Virus record (IMG/VR): IMGVR_UViG_3300027906_000087
Coordinates: 1-30,348 of that record
From: a virus
Direction: 5' to 3' (one strand)
Length of the DNA stretch: 30,348 bases
The position numbers and the translations under genes were made by a program. Below the pieces are notes generated by a model. The model was given only the letters and a program-made list of their open reading frames with translations, had not been told where the DNA came from and did no database searches. Numbering within the stretch: position 1 is the stretch's first letter; each line of letters begins with the position of its first letter. Positions 10,186-27,735 of this stretch are shown one piece after another.

Positions 10186-11014
10186 GATTCAAGTTATAAG
10201 TCCAATGCATGTTGGGATACATACCATTCGTGTAATCACTAATGATGTTTGGAGTATTCAACAACCCAATGTTAATTACCTAGTTCCACCAGTAGTAATT
10301 AATATAGGTAGTCCAATCGTAGAAATGCCTGGTTGTGTAGAGATGCACCAGGATAATAAGATTCATAAAACTAACATCCCAAAGGATAAAGATCTTGTTA
10401 ATACAGATCCTAAAAAATCTACTGTCTTGTGTCCTAGTGGACAGTATCCATCCTACGATGCTATGAATTATGAACCAGAACAATTAATAATAACTAGAGA
10501 AGTACCTCCTCCACCAATAGCAGGTACTCCAGACGCACCAGATACGCCTGACACGCCTGAAACTCCTAAGACATCTACAGAAGATCCTGAGTGCCCTGGA
10601 CCTAACCAACCAAGGATAGGAGACGTAGCACAGAGTCAAGAGGAGAAGGTATCAGGTTATGAATTACAACCTGACCCTGTTAATCCAGGTAAAAAGATAT
10701 GTGTAGTATTATATGAGGATATAGGTGTAGCAGAACAGTATCTACCTAGTGGTCAAGTTGCTGCTACTACGGCTGTGATTGCGACTGTGGCAGGAGCATC
10801 TGCCCTACTTGCAAAACCTCTAGCTGATCTTCTTCTGAGAGTGTTTCGTCCTGCGATAAAGCAGGCTTTGACCAAGGCCAACGCCATCCTTGGGAAGACT
10901 GCCCCTGTGAAACCTTCTCTTCAAGAGATTCGGACTGATGAGTATCGGAAGAAGAGAGGTCTTGATCCGTTGAAGGTTGCTCTGAAGAATGCGAAGAAGC
11001 AGGGTCTGAAGTAG
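10169..11014 (+). CDS. Hypothetical protein with Pro/Thr repeat and C-terminal helix
   Basis: 281 aa. The N-terminal ~100 residues look beta-rich. Residues about 112-140 are a proline repeat (GTPDAPDTPDTPETPKT). Two Cys-containing segments lie on either side of it (VLCPSGQYPSYD; DPECPGPNQPRIGD). A hydrophobic stretch at about 197-225 (VAATTAVIATVAGASALLA) could cross a membrane, and the last 60 residues are very basic. Its last 248 nt overlap the end of a convergent minus-strand gene, so the two C-termini are encoded on opposite strands of the same DNA. Function unknown; possibly a virion or envelope protein. Confidence 0.6.
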   Translation: MDPISEIQVISPMHVGIHTIRVITNDVWSIQQPNVNYLVPPVVINIGSPIVEMPGCVEMHQDNKIHKTNIPKDKDLVNTDPKKSTVLCPSGQYPSYDAMNYEPEQLIITREVPPPPIAGTPDAPDTPDTPETPKTSTEDPECPGPNQPRIGDVAQSQEEKVSGYELQPDPVNPGKKICVVLYEDIGVAEQYLPSGQVAATTAVIATVAGASALLAKPLADLLLRVFRPAIKQALTKANAILGKTAPVKPSLQEIRTDEYRKKRGLDPLKVALKNAKKQGLK

Positions 11015-11873
11015 TTCCTATAGAATGTGTTCCTAGATCATCTGCTGTACCATTTGCTTCAATTTTAATAGGTTCTATTTCATGTGTATGTTGTGCTACT
11101 ACACCAGGTGGGTTAACTAATACAACGTCAGCACATACACCAGCATAAGGTGACTTAGGATGGAACATGATACCAGATTTCATTAATTCACCACAATTTT
11201 TAAGCCTTGCGATTTCAAAATCTAATCTTTTATTAGCAGTTAGTTGTTGTTGCAGCTTTATTTGTGTCGAGGCTGCTAATTTACATTGGTCTTGTAGTGT
11301 TTTATCTAATGGTCTTGACCATGTAGCAGACAGACCTAGAGAAAGATTATATGCATCTGTCTGATTGGTACGAGTTGGCATGTAATATAATACATTTCCT
11401 GGGTTGTCTATCTGTCCATCGTCATCAGCATCATGTACGTCATAGACAGGATCATTATAGTATGATTCAAATGGTCTCTTAAAATTTCCTGTTCCAGTCA
11501 CATAGGGTGTGATGTTCATGGTGGGGCCTTGACATTGTATACCACCACCGTAGGTGTTAGTAATATATGGACCTTGCATAACCTGTATGGCTTGATTGGT
11601 CACTGAGCCAGATGAGTTGGCAATAGGATTTGCCGTGGCACTAACTCCACCAACGTCGGCTGCTAATGCAGCATTCGGTGCTATAAAACTACACAGAGTC
11701 GCTATTGTGTAAAGGTACTTGTAGTATCTGTTACGCTTTGGATAGTGGTAGTCCTTTGTATTATCGTGTGATTTGAAAGCCCTGGGCCTTGATAGCTCTC
11801 CGTGAATTGGAAGGCTGCGCCTGGTGTTGTCATTGTAAAGTCTGGTCTTTGATTTAAATCCAATCCATTCCAT
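10767..11873 (-). CDS. Probable secreted protein; real start unclear
   Basis: The open frame gives 368 aa from its only upstream ATG, but residues 1-45 overlap the upstream gene in another frame and look non-natural. A convincing signal peptide begins near residue 46 (basic KRNRYYK, hydrophobic LYTIATLCSFIA, cleavage after AALA at about 71). No ATG, GTG or TTG lies between residue 2 and that point, so the start may be non-canonical (ATA at residue 57) or reached by frameshifting from the upstream gene. The mature part is beta-rich with a few Cys and a calcium-loop-like DADDDGQID. The C-terminal ~100 residues are Ser/Gln-rich and overlap the convergent plus-strand gene. Function unknown. Confidence 0.55.
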   Translation of the reverse strand: MEWIGFKSKTRLYNDNTRRSLPIHGELSRPRAFKSHDNTKDYHYPKRNRYYKYLYTIATLCSFIAPNAALAADVGGVSATANPIANSSGSVTNQAIQVMQGPYITNTYGGGIQCQGPTMNITPYVTGTGNFKRPFESYYNDPVYDVHDADDDGQIDNPGNVLYYMPTRTNQTDAYNLSLGLSATWSRPLDKTLQDQCKLAASTQIKLQQQLTANKRLDFEIARLKNCGELMKSGIMFHPKSPYAGVCADVVLVNPPGVVAQHTHEIEPIKIEANGTADDLGTHSIGTTSDPASSHSSEQPSTDQDLSSSDTHQSESLEEKVSQGQSSQGWRWPWSKPALSQDETLSEEDQLEVLQVGQMLLPQSQSQP

Positions 11874-13341: not shown

Positions 13342-14571
13342 ATGACTACAATATCAGAAAATCTTGGCATACCTGTTGATCAGCAGGATTATGTCAGTGG
13401 AACCTATACACAAAAATATGTGGATTGGTTAATCAAAGAAGGAAGGATACAGAATAAAGCAGAACTCCCAGATATATGGAGAGAAGAGCACTGTGACCCA
13501 TTGAACTGGCACTACAAGCCAGACACATATGGTGTTGAAGGTGCTCACCTTACTGGTACTCCAGTTATGATGCTCTGGGAAGAGACAGAAGCAGTAGCAG
13601 AAGATAGTAATATAGGTAGAGCAGTATTTGATGAGGTTGTTGAAGTAAACAAACTTGTTTATGACATTCAATCAAGAGGAATATGTCCTCGTGAAGGATC
13701 AATAGTATACTTTGACGTTGAGAAGAACAGAACTGTCAACGGAACACACCGTCGCCGTGCTTCCGAAATTCTTGGCATTGCTGGTTGGATGATGCAAGGT
13801 ATTCGATTTGATACTGAACTAGCACGTATTCGTTTTGCTTTATTAAGTAACGCTCGTAAGGAAGGTCTACCTCATAACAATGCCTCAAAAGAGGATGTTA
13901 AAAACTCAGTACATTTAATTATGGATGAGTTACGTAGGGTAAGACCAATTGGAAAGAAGGATATAGTGAAAGAGGTGAAGGCTCTTGGACATCACCTGTC
14001 TGAGGCCACTCGTGATGATATTCGTGATGCATTATTTGCTGAACTGATTGCCTCTGGTTTGTTCCCTAGTGCTAATGTATTAGTTAACCACAACAATACA
14101 ACTATCGAACGTGTATTTGAAATTGGAGAATACTCATTAACTGAAGTTGAAAAGTTAAATCGTGATGATAGAGATCCTTGGATCAAAGATTACTATGAAA
14201 ATGATGATGAGATTTGTCTCATTGTCAACGTTAAGAACTTTCAACAACGTGTAGGATCTATTCTTGCTACACATGCAATAGCTAAGTCGAAAGGCAAAGC
14301 AATGCATTTCTTATATACTGTATCAGTTCAAGATGCAGGAAAAGAAAGTCTGCTGTCTAAGAGACAGAAGTTTTTCTCAACCTTCTTGAGAGATCTTGAA
14401 GACCATGTTCTTACGGTGATCAGTGACATTCCTTATTTTAATATTGGTGAGGACGGACGAAAGCTCTTCGCTTGGAATCATCCTGATGCAAAGCATCGCG
14501 CAGTGCCACAGGATACTAAGAACGAAGTTAAGAATCGTTTGATTTATGTACCCAACCGTGGGTTCAATTAA
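13342..14571 (+). CDS. ParB/Srx-nuclease-like protein, uncertain
   Basis: 409 aa. Residues about 115-150 read REGSIVYFDVEKNRTVNGTHRRRASEIL, where 'V-N-G-T-H-R-R-R-A' resembles the D-G-x-H-R motif of ParB/sulfiredoxin-fold proteins, which bind nucleotide and in some cases cut DNA. The rest (a helical DNA-binding-like middle, then a mixed region with LIVNVKNFQQRVGSILATHAIA) is not recognised. No Cys-based or other catalytic motif stands out. It is driven by the strongest early promoter in the window and ends 25 nt before the tmRNA/tRNA cluster. A regulatory or host-takeover role is possible but inferred only from position and promoter. Confidence 0.5.
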   Translation: MTTISENLGIPVDQQDYVSGTYTQKYVDWLIKEGRIQNKAELPDIWREEHCDPLNWHYKPDTYGVEGAHLTGTPVMMLWEETEAVAEDSNIGRAVFDEVVEVNKLVYDIQSRGICPREGSIVYFDVEKNRTVNGTHRRRASEILGIAGWMMQGIRFDTELARIRFALLSNARKEGLPHNNASKEDVKNSVHLIMDELRRVRPIGKKDIVKEVKALGHHLSEATRDDIRDALFAELIASGLFPSANVLVNHNNTTIERVFEIGEYSLTEVEKLNRDDRDPWIKDYYENDDEICLIVNVKNFQQRVGSILATHAIAKSKGKAMHFLYTVSVQDAGKESLLSKRQKFFSTFLRDLEDHVLTVISDIPYFNIGEDGRKLFAWNHPDAKHRAVPQDTKNEVKNRLIYVPNRGFN

Positions 14572-14596
14572 ATAACTGTCCACTAGGACTTGACCT

Positions 14597-14683
14597 ATCC
14601 TCTAGAACCTGTTAATATATACAGTGTTCTAGAGGATATTTCGTCTGTTATCTTGGACAGGGGTTCGATTCCCCTCATCTCCA
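14597..14683 (+). ncRNA. ssrA: tmRNA acceptor piece of permuted two-piece tmRNA
   Basis: The 3' end has a perfect tRNA-like T arm: stem AGGGG/CCCCT (14659-14663 and 14671-14675) around loop TTCGATT. It is followed by acceptor strand CATCTCC (14676-14682) and discriminator A (14683); CCA is not encoded. CATCTCC pairs all seven positions with GGGGATG at 14767-14773, including a G3-U70 wobble, the alanyl-tRNA synthetase identity element. Bases 14646-14655 pair over 10 bp with 14786-14795 (helix P2). The 5' end is uncertain: a 12-bp perfect hairpin (14597-14608 with 14626-14637) may mark it. A TTGACC box at 14590-14595 with TAATAT 17 nt later is a possible promoter, which would put the 5' end inside the hairpin. 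Confidence 0.85.
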
Positions 14684-14688
14684 TTCCT

Positions 14689-14761
14689 TCCCCTGTAGCT
14701 CAGTTGGTAGAGCAGGTGACTGTTAATCACCCTGTCCCTGGTTCGAGTCCAGGCGGGGGAG
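14689..14761 (+). tRNA. tRNA-Asn (anticodon GUU)
   Basis: A full 73-nt cloverleaf. Acceptor TCCCCTG pairs with CGGGGGA (one G-T wobble), discriminator G, D arm GCTCAGTTGGTAGAGC, anticodon stem GGTGA/TCACC around loop CTGTTAA (anticodon GTT), T arm CCTGG/CCAGG around TTCGAGT. CCA is not encoded. Asn codons are frequent in the AT-rich fibre genes here. It sits in the intervening segment of the permuted tmRNA, exactly 5 nt from the tmRNA acceptor end and 5 nt from the start of the tmRNA coding piece, so tRNA maturation could also release the tmRNA ends. Confidence 0.95.
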
Positions 14762-14766
14762 TTCAA

Positions 14767-14928
14767 GGGGATGCACTGGTTTCGACAGGGTAGTAAGGTT
14801 ATATCTGTTGACGGAGCAAACCAACAAACGCTAACAACATAGTTAGTTTCTCACGTCAGCGAGTCCCAGTGGCCGCTTGACCCAAGTGAGATGGGGTTAG
14901 ATCAGCCTTATTACCCAAATGATCCATT
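14767..14928 (+). ncRNA. ssrA: tmRNA coding piece, tag ANNIVSFSRQRVPVAA
   Basis: Begins GGGGATGCACTGGTTTCGAC, the tmRNA 5' acceptor strand plus the D-loop-like segment. A pk1-like interleaved pairing (GGTT 14797-14800 with AACC; GTT 14807-14809 with AAC 14823-14825) precedes the tag frame. The resume codon GCT is at 14830 and the stop TGA at 14878-14880. The 16-residue tag ANNIVSFSRQRVPVAA has the marine cyanobacterial pattern (AN[NK]IV...SRQ..PVAA) and a VAA degron for ClpXP-type proteases. tmRNA rescues ribosomes stalled on broken mRNA and tags the unfinished protein. The 3' boundary is approximate, placed before the terminator hairpin. Confidence 0.9.
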
Positions 14929-14951
14929 GGTGGCTGAGAGGCCACCTTTTT
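14929..14951 (+). terminator. Intrinsic terminator of the tmRNA/tRNA transcript
   Basis: GGTGGC (14929-14934), 6-nt loop, GCCACC (14941-14946), then TTTTT. It separates the RNA cluster from the psbA promoter that begins 12 nt later. Confidence 0.85.
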
Positions 14952-15091: not shown

Positions 15092-16174
15092 ATGACAACT
15101 CTATCAAAAAAAGATAGTGGCCTGTTAGCTGGATGGGACGAGTTTTGCGAATGGGTAACAAGTACAAACAACCGCATCTATGTTGGTTGGTTTGGAGTAT
15201 TAATGATTCCATGCTTGTTAGCTGCCGCTACTTGTTTCATCGTTGCTTTCATAGCTGCGCCTCCCGTCGATATTGACGGAATCAGAGAACCTGTTGCTGG
15301 TTCTTTAATGTTTGGTAATAACATCATCTCTGGTGCTGTTGTTCCTTCAAGTAACGCAATTGGACTACACTTCTATCCCATTTGGGAAGCAGCATCACTC
15401 GATGAGTGGTTGTATAACGGTGGTCCATATCAGTTGGTAATCTTCCACTTCCTTATTGGAATCTCTGCCTACATGGGTAGACAGTGGGAATTATCATATC
15501 GTTTAGGTATGAGACCTTGGATCTGTGTTGCATATTCTGCACCAGTATCTGCTGCATTCGCAGTCTTCCTTGTATATCCATTTGGTCAGGGTTCATTCTC
15601 TGATGGAATGCCACTAGGTATCTCTGGAACATTCAACTTTATGTTTGTCTTCCAAGCAGAGCACAACATTCTTATGCACCCCTTCCATATGGCAGGTGTA
15701 GCAGGTATGTTTGGTGGAGCACTCTTTAGTGCTATGCACGGTTCACTCGTTACATCTTCTCTAATCAGAGAGACTACCGAGAATGAGTCTCAGAACTATG
15801 GTTACAAGTTTGGTCAAGAAGAAGAGACCTATAACATTGTTGCTGCTCATGGATACTTTGGACGTTTGATCTTCCAGTATGCATCATTCAACAACAGTAG
15901 AAGTCTTCACTTCTTCCTAGCATCATTCCCAGTTATTTGTATCTGGCTTACCTCTATGGGTATATGCACGATGGCATTCAACTTGAATGGATTCAACTTC
16001 AACCAGTCTATTGTATCTGCTGATGGTAAGATTGTTCCTACTTGGGCAGACGTTCTAAACAGAGCGAACTTAGGTATGGAAGTTATGCACGAGCGTAATG
16101 CTCATAACTTCCCACTTGATCTCGCTGCTGCTGAGACTAGTACAGTTGCTTTAGTGGCACCTGCTATTGGTTGA
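15092..16174 (+). CDS. psbA: Photosystem II reaction centre protein D1
   Basis: 360 aa, full length and uninterrupted (no intron or homing endonuclease as in some cyanophage psbA genes). With numbering one higher than plant D1, the key residues are all present: Q131 (canonical 130, the low-light D1:1-type Gln), Tyr-Z Y162, Mn ligands D171, E190, H333, E334 and D343, and H191 and H199. The precursor cleavage site is after A345 (PLDLA), leaving a 15-residue C-terminal extension. D1 turns over rapidly in light; the phage copy keeps photosystem II working after host synthesis stops. It has its own promoter and terminator, so it is a single-gene unit. Confidence 0.98.
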
Positions 16175-20918: not shown

Positions 20919-20927
20919 TAACACATA

Positions 20928-21008
20928 CGTTCAACCCCTTTGGGGTCGCAAGTAAGTCGCGGAACGGATACGTTCATCCCTTCGGGGACGCACACGACTA
21001 AAGGAACG
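20928..21008 (+). ncRNA. Glutamine riboswitch-like RNA (glnA / Downstream-peptide type)
   Basis: The 5' half reads CGTTC-A-ACCCC-TTT-GGGGT-CGCAAGTAAG and the 3' end CTAAAGGAACGG. This is the pattern of glutamine aptamers: P1 CGTTC/GGAACG, a short P2 hairpin, the conserved CGnAAGTAGG-like joint, then CCGAAGGAACG. Between the halves is a second CGTTCATCCC-TTC-GGGGA hairpin plus an inner GGAACG, so it can be read as two tandem copies (20928-20966 and 20971-21008) or one aptamer with a long P3 arm (AGTCG 20954-20958 with CGACT 20995-20999). It lies between a promoter and a 49-aa peptide gene, the standard context of this class. Confidence 0.75.
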
Positions 21009-21043
21009 GGCCTTAAAATCCAACTACTTTAGGAGAAAATCCA

Positions 21044-25286: not shown

Positions 25287-25476
25287 TATCGGCGTAATTA
25301 ACCGATACGGGAGTGACTGAATAAACTTGCTGGCATAAGGCTAGTTAAGGTGATGAGACACAGGTGGTGCTGCTTCCCCCAAGGAAGAACCGACCTACCA
25401 GTCGGGTCTCAGATAGTACAGTAAAAATCTACTAATGTAGCAATGCCCTGTACTTGTTGGTATACATTAATCCAAC
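25287..25476 (+). ncRNA. Structured leader of gp32
   Basis: Stems found by eye: TATCGG/CCGATA (25287-25292/25302-25307), right at the predicted transcript start; outer TGAGAC/GTCTCA (25354-25359/25406-25411) enclosing CTTCC/GGAAG (25373-25377/25383-25387) and CCGAC/GTCGG (25390-25394/25401-25405); GTACAG/CTGTAC (25416-25421/25448-25453) enclosing CTAC/GTAG; and GTTGG/CCAAC (25456-25460/25472-25476). No ORF occupies it. It could control gp32 translation (T4 gp32 binds its own mRNA at a leader pseudoknot), act as a riboswitch, or be an independent small RNA. I could not match it to a known riboswitch class. Confidence 0.5.
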
Positions 25477-25519
25477 CTCCCACCCCAAACCAAATCCAAT
25501 AAAATCTAAGGTAATCTAA

Positions 25520-26416
25520 ATGTCGTTTGCTAGTTTAAAGAAAAAGTCTGGTCAGAATCTACAGTTTCTACAAAAAGAATTGGAGAAGTCTGTTAGTGGT
25601 AAGAATGTTGATGAGAGATTCTGGAAGCCAGAGGTAGATGCATCAGGTAATGGTTATGCTGTTATCCGTTTCCTTCCTGCACCTGATGGGGAGACAGTTC
25701 CCTGGGCAAAAGTATATTCACATGCTTTTCAAGGGCCAGGAGGATGGTACATTGAGAACAGTTTAACAACTCTTGGTGAAAAAGATCCAGTAGGTGAGGT
25801 TAATCGCCGTCTCTGGAACAGTGGTGAAGAAGCAGACAAGGACACTGCACGTAGACAGAAGCGTAAGTTGTCCTACTACAGTAACATTCTTGTTGTAAAG
25901 GATCCTAAGAATCCTGATAACGAGGGTAAAACATTTCTGTATAAGTATGGTAAGAAGATCCATGATAAGATTCTTGCAGCAATGCAACCTGAGTTCCAAG
26001 ATGAGACACCAGTAAATGTGTTTGATTTCTGGGAAGGTGCTAACTTCAAGTTGAAGATCAAGAAAGTAGCAGGGTTCTGGAATTATGATAGCAGTGAGTT
26101 TGATTCTGTTAGTGCTCTTAGTTCAGATGATTCTGAATTGGAAGCAACGTGGAAGAAGGAGCACTCGCTAGAAGCATTCCTTGCTAAGGATCAGTTCAAA
26201 TCTTTTGAAGATCTAGAAAGAAGGTTGAGTTTTGTATTAGGTACTGCCAAACGTGCTGCTGTATCAACAGTAGATACTGAGGAGTATGAGCCAGTCAAGG
26301 CCCCAGAACAATCTTCTTTTCGTGCTAAAGTAAGTGCGAACATACCAGTGAAAGAAGAATCAATAGTTGAAGATGATGATGCACTCTCCTACTTCAGACA
26401 ACTTGCAGAGGAGTAA
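25520..26416 (+). CDS. 32: gp32-like single-stranded DNA-binding protein
   Basis: 298 aa. It fits T4 gp32: a basic, helical N-terminus with KKKSG (LAST-like, for cooperative binding), a central OB-fold-type domain (residues about 30-220, with VIRFLPAPDGETVPWAKVYS, GGWYIENSLTTLGEKDP, LSYYSNILVVKDPKNPDNEG), and a low-complexity acidic C-terminus (EESIVEDDDALSYFRQLAEE) for partner binding. Unlike T4 gp32 it has no Cys, so the zinc site is missing. It coats ssDNA during replication, recombination and repair. A long structured leader precedes it and pebS overlaps its 3' end. Confidence 0.92.
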   Translation: MSFASLKKKSGQNLQFLQKELEKSVSGKNVDERFWKPEVDASGNGYAVIRFLPAPDGETVPWAKVYSHAFQGPGGWYIENSLTTLGEKDPVGEVNRRLWNSGEEADKDTARRQKRKLSYYSNILVVKDPKNPDNEGKTFLYKYGKKIHDKILAAMQPEFQDETPVNVFDFWEGANFKLKIKKVAGFWNYDSSEFDSVSALSSDDSELEATWKKEHSLEAFLAKDQFKSFEDLERRLSFVLGTAKRAAVSTVDTEEYEPVKAPEQSSFRAKVSANIPVKEESIVEDDDALSYFRQLAEE

Positions 26417-27038
26417 TGATCTCTGGAAAAACTACAGGTCAGCAGTCTTTGAGACTTTCCCTGACCTGAAGTTTGAGAAACAACATGTTCATTGGACTAA
26501 CGAAAAGGATGTCCATCTTACTGCTGACCTGTATTCAGGTCAGTATTTTATTAAGTCGAGACATGTTGATATCTGGGATGACAAATTAAATATCCATAAC
26601 AATGTGATCTATCCTAAGACAGGGCATAACCTTCCCTGTTTCGGGATGGATCTTATGGGTTTCTTTGAGAAGAAAGTTATCATAGTATTTGATTTCCAAC
26701 ATCCAGTTGAAAATTATGTACTTAATGTACCACCATTACCTAAAGCAGAAGGAACCTATCGTTTCTTTGAACCAGGTAATCATTTCTCTGAGAATATATT
26801 TGTTAGATACTGTGAGATGTCACAGGTTGACACTTACTTACCAACATTCAAATATTATCTGTCACTCTATAAAGAGATGATAGATAAAGCAAAACCTACT
26901 GGTACTGATACCAGTCTGTATAAAGATTTTGATAAGTATATGATAAGACTTGATCCTATCTCAGGATACCTATCTAATTCATTTGGAAAGGAAGAGTCTG
27001 AAAAACTAATCAAAGAATTCTTTTTCAGTTATGCTTGA
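26373..27038 (+). CDS. pebS: Phycoerythrobilin synthase (ferredoxin-dependent bilin reductase)
   Basis: About 221 aa from the ATG at 26373. The start is uncertain (TTG 26367, ATG 26376 or 26379 also possible), all overlapping gp32. It aligns well with PebS of P-SSM2 as I recall it: YPKTGHNLPCFGMDLMGF, KKVIIVFDFQHP, YRFFEPGNHFSENIFVRYC, DFDKYMIRLDPISGY. The two catalytic aspartates (D105 and D206 in PebS) are present here as the Asp of FGMDLM and of RLDPISG, exactly 101 residues apart. PebS reduces biliverdin IXa to phycoerythrobilin in two two-electron steps using ferredoxin. No heme oxygenase (ho1) is in this window. Confidence 0.93.
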   Translation: MMMHSPTSDNLQRSNDLWKNYRSAVFETFPDLKFEKQHVHWTNEKDVHLTADLYSGQYFIKSRHVDIWDDKLNIHNNVIYPKTGHNLPCFGMDLMGFFEKKVIIVFDFQHPVENYVLNVPPLPKAEGTYRFFEPGNHFSENIFVRYCEMSQVDTYLPTFKYYLSLYKEMIDKAKPTGTDTSLYKDFDKYMIRLDPISGYLSNSFGKEESEKLIKEFFFSYA

Positions 27039-27735
27039 CTTAGTAGACGATCTAGCATCCTTAATCACTCAGGTGATGGAAAGTTTCCCTGATGTTGAAC
27101 CATTAGAGAGTCCTATCCCTGAAGTGAATAAGGATGACTTGATCATTACAAACAAGATGTATAAGTGTCCTTCACTTAGGAAGATGCACTTGGAGTTGGC
27201 AGACTTAAAGGGACTAAAGATATTACATTCTATATTCTATCCTGATCCACGTTACAATCTACCTATCTTTGGGTGTGATGTGGTTGCTACTGAGAAGGCA
27301 GTGACTGCTGCTATCGTTGATGTATCTCCTATGAGTGGTGTTGATGATAGATTCTACAGTAAGATAAGAGAGATCAGTAACAGGTATAGTTTCAGTGAGA
27401 GAAGGCCACTTCCATTGTGGGCAGATGAAATCTTCTCACCTTACTGTAAGTTCATGCGTCTTAGTAACTTCATGGACATGACAAATTTCTATTGCATTGT
27501 ATCTGAATACCTTAATGTTTTCTCTAATGATCTGTATCATTCAGTGATAGATGATAAAGAATATAATAGAGTGATGCTAAGGTTTGATGATCAGATATAT
27601 TATTGTAATCAACAGAAGAAGAATGATAAGACTCGTGGTATACTAGAGAAGTTATTTGATAAGGAATGGGCAGAAGAATACATAAACACAGTACTTTTTG
27701 ATTTACCATGTCTAAAAGAACAGCAGGAGAAGTAG
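27031..27735 (+). CDS. pcyA: Phycocyanobilin:ferredoxin oxidoreductase
   Basis: 234 aa. PcyA makes phycocyanobilin from biliverdin IXa with four ferredoxin electrons. Family blocks: RKMHLELADLKGLKILHSIF, PRYNLPIFGCDVVA, QQKKNDKTRGILEKLF and EEYINTVLFDLP. The catalytic residues of Synechocystis PcyA (E76, H88, D105) correspond to E55, H66 and D83. The N-terminus is about 20 residues shorter than cyanobacterial PcyA. It overlaps pebS by 8 nt, so the two reductases are co-translated. The same pool of biliverdin would be shared between them. Confidence 0.95.
   Translation: MLDLVDDLASLITQVMESFPDVEPLESPIPEVNKDDLIITNKMYKCPSLRKMHLELADLKGLKILHSIFYPDPRYNLPIFGCDVVATEKAVTAAIVDVSPMSGVDDRFYSKIREISNRYSFSERRPLPLWADEIFSPYCKFMRLSNFMDMTNFYCIVSEYLNVFSNDLYHSVIDDKEYNRVMLRFDDQIYYCNQQKKNDKTRGILEKLFDKEWAEEYINTVLFDLPCLKEQQEK

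Follow-up and report, generated by a model that had tools for sequence, protein, structure and literature searches.

A complete tRNA-Asn gene in the intervening segment of a permuted cyanophage tmRNA gene, with counterparts in other viral contigs

How does a complete tRNA gene come to lie within another RNA gene, and what would become of the two products? The question is raised by a linear virus record of 30,348 bases (hereafter the window, meaning this whole stretch of DNA), in which the only two RNA genes called by ARAGORN are a permuted tmRNA and a tRNA-Asn that lies within it. We consider it very likely that a T4-like cyanophage here carries a permuted tmRNA of the cyanobacterial type whose discarded intervening segment (IVS) received a complete phage tRNA-Asn, that host tRNA enzymes cut the single transcript, and that the IVS is a repeatedly used landing site.

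A permuted tmRNA gene enclosing a tRNA

The cyanobacterial tmRNA model of Rfam (cyano_tmRNA, RF01851) matches positions 14609-14945 with 162.7 bits (cutoff, 70; E 2.7e-45), aligning from model position 1 to 288, end to end across the permuted order and over both halves—a score above those of all other nested phage cases scored. The tmRNA_permuted model (RF04321) scores 109.7 bits (cutoff, 47; model positions 1-213). Together with the ARAGORN call, these matches bear out a sequence-only reading of the locus, which had recognised a permuted two-piece tmRNA of the cyanobacterial type and named RF01851 as the model to search with. The acceptor half lies 5′ of the coding half, and the locus is laid out as follows:

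14590..14618, + strand: sigma-70-like promoter (TTGACC-17-TAATAT) upstream of the tmRNA, from a consensus scan
14620..14683, + strand: tmRNA acceptor half, from the RF01851 and RF04321 alignments; 5′ end predicted, 3′ end at the discriminator A14683
14647-14654, 14659-14675 and 14676-14682, + strand: P2 5′ strand, T arm and acceptor 3′ strand, all in the acceptor half
14684..14688, + strand: 5′ IVS linker TTCCT, read from the sequence; CCA is not encoded, as in alpha-cyanobacterial hosts
14689..14761, + strand: nested tRNA-Asn with anticodon GUU and discriminator G73, from RF00005 on the IVS alone and ARAGORN
14762..14766, + strand: 3′ IVS linker TTCAA, read from the sequence
14767..14945, + strand: tmRNA coding half (RF01851), with acceptor 5′ strand (14767-14773), P2 3′ strand (14787-14794), tag frame and 3′ helices
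14830..14880, + strand: tag reading frame ANNIVSFSRQRVPVAA and stop (ARAGORN)
14929..14946, + strand: intrinsic-terminator-like hairpin followed by TTTTT, downstream of the tag frame
15092..16174, + strand: psbA (photosystem II D1), the next gene downstream of the tmRNA (phrog_182, E 7e-195; tblastn, 93% to the contig L081)

The two halves are joined by a tmRNA acceptor stem in which GGGGATG (14767-14773) pairs with CATCTCC (14676-14682) at 7/7 positions, including the alanine-specific G3-U70, next to discriminator A14683, just as had been read from the letters. The T stem of the acceptor half has 5/5 pairs, and its T arm is intact. In the coding half, the tag frame carries a GCU resume codon and a stop, resembles host tags (Synechococcus, ANNIVRFSRQAAPVAA; Prochlorococcus, ANKIVSFSRQTAPVAA), is intact and aligns to those of the contigs L081 and L424; the stop and 3′ helices are conserved. 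The gene resembles the alpha-cyanobacterial two-piece tmRNA (RF01851/RF04321) in its acceptor-then-coding order, its ANNIV..FSR..PVAA-type tag and its lack of an encoded CCA; the short IVS of those hosts is removed in maturation, as is predicted for the IVS here. It differs in being a phage gene and in holding a complete tRNA in its IVS.

The halves would also pair through P2, which had been described as a 10-bp helix; instead of 10 pairs we find an uninterrupted run of 8 (14647-14654 with 14787-14794), at least half of which are G-U. Phage and host tmRNAs differ in a compensatory manner in this helix (for example, A-U to G-C and U-A to C-G, by comparison rather than formal test), and this joint change of paired letters argues in favour of P2.

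Searched alone, the IVS (14684-14766) matches the tRNA model RF00005 at 14689-14761 (66.3 bits; E 4.3e-15), and the predicted cloverleaf has anticodon GTT (GUU) and discriminator G at 14761. The tRNA-Asn lies wholly inside the IVS, and the claims of a complete tRNA between the halves and of exactly 5 nt on each side were both correct. Since it is 97% identical to the tRNA-Asn of AG-345-F15 and 95% identical to those of S-RIM12 (where the tRNA-Asn is free-standing) and S-MbCM6, its donor was probably a cyanophage tRNA.

Genomic and transcriptional context

The proteins encoded around the tmRNA are those of a T4-like cyanophage: a virion structural protein (phrog_6002), 2OG-Fe(II) oxygenase, psbA, purN, purC, thymidylate synthase, PhoH, an exonuclease, a gp32-like single-strand binding protein and a baseplate wedge. 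By this combination of a T4-like core with cyanophage auxiliary genes we assign the window to the T4-like cyanophages (Kyanoviridae), and the phage origin that had been proposed is upheld, in particular by psbA, phoH, the gp32-like protein, purN/purC and the baseplate wedge. Neither the window nor S-CAM1 nor any of five related contigs with nested tRNAs yielded an smpB gene, so any trans-translation would rely on host SmpB.

The window holds further features outside the tmRNA. A glutamine riboswitch (RF01739, 39.7 bits; cutoff, 35) is predicted at 20926-21012, and a manA RNA (RF01745, 171.2 bits) at 25287-25486, a short way 5′ of the gene at 25520 for the gp32-like single-strand binding protein. 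Two neighbouring genes at 26367-27735 share a match to phrog_7278 (ferredoxin oxidoreductase) and may be a tandem duplication or a split gene. Immediately upstream of the tmRNA lies a 409-aa ORF (13342-14571) that has no PHROGs or Pfam match, was not seen in L081 and has a 25% identical stretch in L424; it contains a GTHRRRASE motif, presumably reminiscent of ParB-like proteins. L424 itself has two psbA copies, at 233-1288 and 10620-11699 (− strand), both ~92% identical to the window PsbA, and one of them sits just downstream of the tmRNA.

Consensus scanning gave two sigma-70-like sites in the region against 1.4 expected, which alone is weak evidence; S-CAM1 has a TTGACA/TACTAT-like arrangement at the position equivalent to the promoter-like site of the window. 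One potential transcription unit extends from this site (14590-14618) to the terminator-like hairpin (14929-14946). As the former precedes and the latter ends the whole gene, no separate transcription signals are visible for the nested tRNA. A perfect 12-bp inverted repeat, ATCCTCTAGAAC ... GTTCTAGAGGAT, spans the predicted promoter at 14597-14637 with the –10 element in its loop. It is absent from L081; at the equivalent place in S-CAM1 there is a dyad of lesser length, CACTGTAT..ATACAGTG, and the repeat is therefore a possible operator or promoter-linked structure. Position 14597, previously given as the start of the feature, is the start of this repeat and not necessarily that of the RNA.

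In the minimum free energy (MFE) fold of 14597-14945, the tmRNA acceptor stem encloses 5 nt, the cloverleaf and another 5 nt. For a transcript starting at 14620, the MFE fold has the acceptor strands of tRNA and tmRNA mispaired, and the nested fold accounts for a fraction of roughly 0.14-0.16 of the ensemble. Folds computed without constraints do not contain P2 (–103.9 kcal/mol with P2 enforced versus –115.7). Co-transcriptional folding would favour the nested form, given that the tRNA would be complete before the second tmRNA acceptor strand is made.

Relatives without a tRNA

The nearest syntenic relative of the window is L081, a 32-kb IMG/VR contig (fibre-like protein 90%, oxygenase 96% and psbA 93% identical), in which psbA lies just downstream of the tmRNA, in the same order as in the window. 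Its tmRNA can be aligned to that of the window both before and after the insert, and the IVS between its halves consists only of ATACGA; on this alignment, L081 is an empty site at the locus of the window. L424 is similar (IVS, ATCAT; tag, ANNIVSFSRQAAPVAA), and within the IVS the window differs from these two by the tRNA and its linkers.

Together with the discriminator A, the 3′ linker TTCAA equals the whole IVS (ATTCAA) of L088, L422 and L442, and the 5′ linker with the discriminator (ATTCCT) equals that of phage L460; being matches of five-letter words, these may be due to chance.

Empty tmRNAs also occur in phage isolates, namely S-CAM1 (IVS, ACTCAT), S-CAM3 (ATTCAT), Sf-FS3 (ACTCAT) and S-SSM7 (ACTCAG), and in the single-cell record AG-345-P14 (ATTCAG). 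These phage two-piece tmRNAs share with that of the window the RNA family, the phage group and, in several, the neighbourhood of a tRNA cluster; they differ in that their IVS of 6 nt is empty.

Recurrence of nested tRNAs

The sequence-only reading knew of no permuted tmRNA with a tRNA in its loop and suggested looking for the same order in other cyanophages. Pattern scans of IMG/VR, whose yield depends on the pattern, turned up at least 14 other viral contigs in which a cyano-type permuted tmRNA encloses an intact tRNA in its IVS. A tRNA-Asn different from that of the window is nested in seven (L256, L373, L375, L377, L380, L381 and L382) and a tRNA-Tyr in another seven (L277, L297, L301, L357, L291, L327 and L356). 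With at least this many phage contigs, one published permuted tmRNA IVS containing a tRNA-Ala (PMC11915505) and phage two-piece tmRNAs already described (PMC9004378), the notion that the arrangement lacks precedent has to be abandoned. All nested contigs scanned with Rfam are RF01851-positive, L356 in a whole-record search. The locus of L256 ends inside the gene, where ARAGORN makes no tmRNA call and RF01851 lends support in a whole-record search; L357 likewise ends inside the gene and is supported by a pairing test and by its identity with L301. Across relatives, linkers of 2-5 nt surround the nested tRNA. One contig was tried and rejected as a nested case: L123 (− strand; RF04321 match at 2077-2425) has an IVS of 167 nt in which ARAGORN calls no tRNA.

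In a set of 109 cyano-type phage tmRNAs—taken from the window, from some isolate records and from contigs selected by pattern, partly from among the matches listed, such that the frequencies are not unbiased—the IVS was 12 nt or shorter in 85, contained a tRNA in 15 and something else in nine. No cyano-type tmRNA with an IVS of 93-123 nt was found in IMG/VR, and distant searches of the 50,697 phage records of INPHARED returned no isolate with a nested tRNA. The exact allele of the window is known from a single metagenomic contig; a second copy was not found in the searched sets, from which records near the window may be missing. Of 400 genomes of the host family, 337 are matched by the model; in four of the 400 the IVS falls in the 60-90 nt class but contains no tRNA, and the IVS measures 6-35 nt in the host loci read.

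Evolution of the nested genes

When mature tmRNA sequences are placed on a tree, all 16 host genes group together (99/94). The nested tmRNAs are polyphyletic: the nested state changes five times, and nine times on a larger, quicker tree. A single clade of all nested tmRNAs is rejected (AU p 3.6e-22), as are the grouping of the window with L256, both of which hold a tRNA-Asn (p 2.7e-6), and that of the tRNA-Tyr nested set (p 4.5e-7).

S-CAM1-like and Sf-FS3-like tmRNAs have tRNA-bearing counterparts in IMG/VR (L301, L291, L327 and L356). Because a near-identical tRNA-Tyr occurs in these two distant tmRNA backgrounds, the comparison suggests that the IVS may be exchanged when the conserved blocks on either side, T-arm/acceptor and GGGG..TG.CATGGTTTCGAC, recombine. 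A likely source of the nested tRNA-Tyr is visible in a syntenic pair of contigs with near-identical tmRNAs. In L423, tRNA-Tyr heads the array Tyr-Ser-Val-Pro-Asn-Leu-Ala and the tmRNA is empty; in L291, the array reads Ser-Val-Pro-Asn-Leu-Ala and the tRNA-Tyr is nested in the tmRNA, with no free tRNA-Tyr found in the 14.5 kb covered. The pair thus points to the tRNA array as the likely origin.

The opposite event, tRNA loss, may have left traces as well. The short IVSs ACCTTTGCAA, ACCTTGCAG and ACCTTGCAA of L393, L394, L387 and L418 begin like the nested tRNA-Asn form ACCTTTGCTCC..., and such short IVSs may, speculatively, be deletion scars.

Maturation model and alternative explanations

We propose that acceptor half, tRNA-Asn and coding half are made as a single transcript, probably from the 14590-14618 promoter to the 14929-14946 terminator. 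Host RNase P would generate the 5′ ends of the tRNA-Asn (14689) and the coding half (14767), RNase Z or 3′ exonucleases would generate the 3′ ends of the acceptor half (14683) and the tRNA (14761), and CCA would be added to both the acceptor half and the tRNA-Asn. The predicted products are a free tRNA-Asn, available for charging, and a two-piece tmRNA joined by the acceptor stem and P2, which would act with host SmpB in ribosome rescue; these cuts and the CCA addition are modelled on established tRNA and two-piece tmRNA biology. The idea that processing of the tRNA alone makes both tmRNA ends fails on the linkers: as these persist on both sides of the tRNA (5 nt here, 2-5 nt in relatives), the tmRNA needs RNase P and 3′-end cuts of its own. 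Relatives that lack a tRNA, with IVSs of 5-10 nt, are presumably processed without one. The IVS would be a harmless, already transcribed landing site for tRNA genes, since the enzymes of tRNA maturation excise it in any case, and this removal would account for repeated entry of tRNA genes in cyanophages.

Alternatively, the nested tRNA might be kept for a function, since its excision would help or pace tmRNA maturation (with additional sites for RNase P and RNase Z at which the IVS is opened) or would tie the output of tRNA and tmRNA to one transcript. The insertion is confined to the IVS, recurs with different tRNAs in distant tmRNA lineages and retains linkers of 2-5 nt, all of which would suit such coupling. 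However, close relatives and most cyanophages (the 85 tmRNAs with an IVS of up to 12 nt in the selected set of 109) do without a tRNA, and the nine switches in its presence on the larger tree fit a dispensable passenger, so we regard functional coupling as unlikely. It is less probable still that the tmRNA halves are a decaying relic that supplies a promoter and terminator to a tRNA-Asn which alone is used. The G-U pairs among the eight of P2 beside the T arm, and the failure of P2 to form in unconstrained folding, are what decay might produce; yet the fully paired acceptor stem with its G3-U70, the intact T arm and tag frame, the conserved stop and 3′ helices and the 162.7-bit match all argue against it.

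We also considered, and rejected, coincidence and two explanations that deny the gene its unity. A metagenomic assembly chimera of a tRNA-Asn contig with a tmRNA comes to mind in view of the single contig for the window allele; it would require two joints within 83 nt, both inside the IVS, whereas the same architecture is present in the other nested contigs from many samples, and we deem it highly improbable. An ordinary tRNA array followed by a standard one-piece tmRNA, with the upstream part a tRNA fragment, derives some appeal from the resemblance of tRNA 3′ halves to the tmRNA acceptor half, blast matching the latter to tandem tRNA-Arg/Asn and tRNA-Ala/Asn pairs. Yet RF01851 aligns end to end in the permuted order, and its alignment shows no T arm with a CATCTCC-like strand downstream of 14880, as a one-piece gene would have; the upstream half, which no program calls a tRNA, is complementary to 14767-14773, and ARAGORN calls no standard-form tmRNA, making this the least credible explanation, with next to no probability. 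We hence retain the reading of an intact permuted tmRNA whose IVS probably served as a landing site.

Relation to known systems

Phage isolates have yielded 53 two-piece tmRNAs, most of them from marine or aquatic settings (PMC9004378). A 2025 database paper describes one permuted tmRNA, that of the nominally archaeal MAG GCA-2688965__sp002688965.2, whose IVS contains an intact tRNA-Ala, and calls this a unique feature among 97,179 tmRNAs, 79 of them from phages (PMC11915505). As compared by description rather than sequence, that gene and the window share an intact tRNA gene inside a permuted tmRNA IVS. The published case concerns tRNA-Ala in a genome of doubtful origin, given no further analysis, whereas the genes described here are from phages, contain two kinds of tRNA-Asn as well as tRNA-Tyr, recur and have empty sites. 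Group I introns in tmRNA T loops are another element housed in tmRNA genes (PMC11915505); these are self-splicing and lie within the mature sequence, while the nested tRNA lies in discarded sequence and needs no splicing. The literature searched, with subscription journals outside its scope, yielded no other report of a tRNA in a tmRNA IVS.

Nested tRNA-tmRNA genes are rarer than ordinary phage tmRNAs; their recurrence, the variety of their tRNAs and the natural empty sites add to their interest. What began as a one-line curiosity thereby becomes a recurrent comparative system, with natural empty-site controls in the isolates S-CAM1, S-CAM3, Sf-FS3 and S-SSM7, that marks out the split-tmRNA IVS as a place where phage tRNA genes land. 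The nested genes offer tractable material for studying in which order RNase P and RNase Z cut a precursor whose two tRNA-like domains are interlocked, and they bear on why phages carry tmRNA at all.

A bolder and rather doubtful proposal is that the nested tRNA-tmRNA is a recurrent phage device coupling tRNA excision to tmRNA maturation from one precursor, such that rescue capacity and tRNA supply would be set together during takeover; tRNA-like IVS remains in the beta-type L378, L371 and L369 group would then be later stages, and nested tRNAs the source of permuted-tmRNA IVSs. The beta-type (RF01850) phage tmRNAs in question have IVSs that resemble decayed or modified tRNAs (L378:10735-10873, L371:5885-6023 and L369:3796-3920). 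The L378 IVS is predicted to form a cloverleaf whose anticodon loop is enlarged and whose acceptor stem is lengthened; in L371 and in the L369 group, long hairpins retain GGTTCGAATCC-like T arms.
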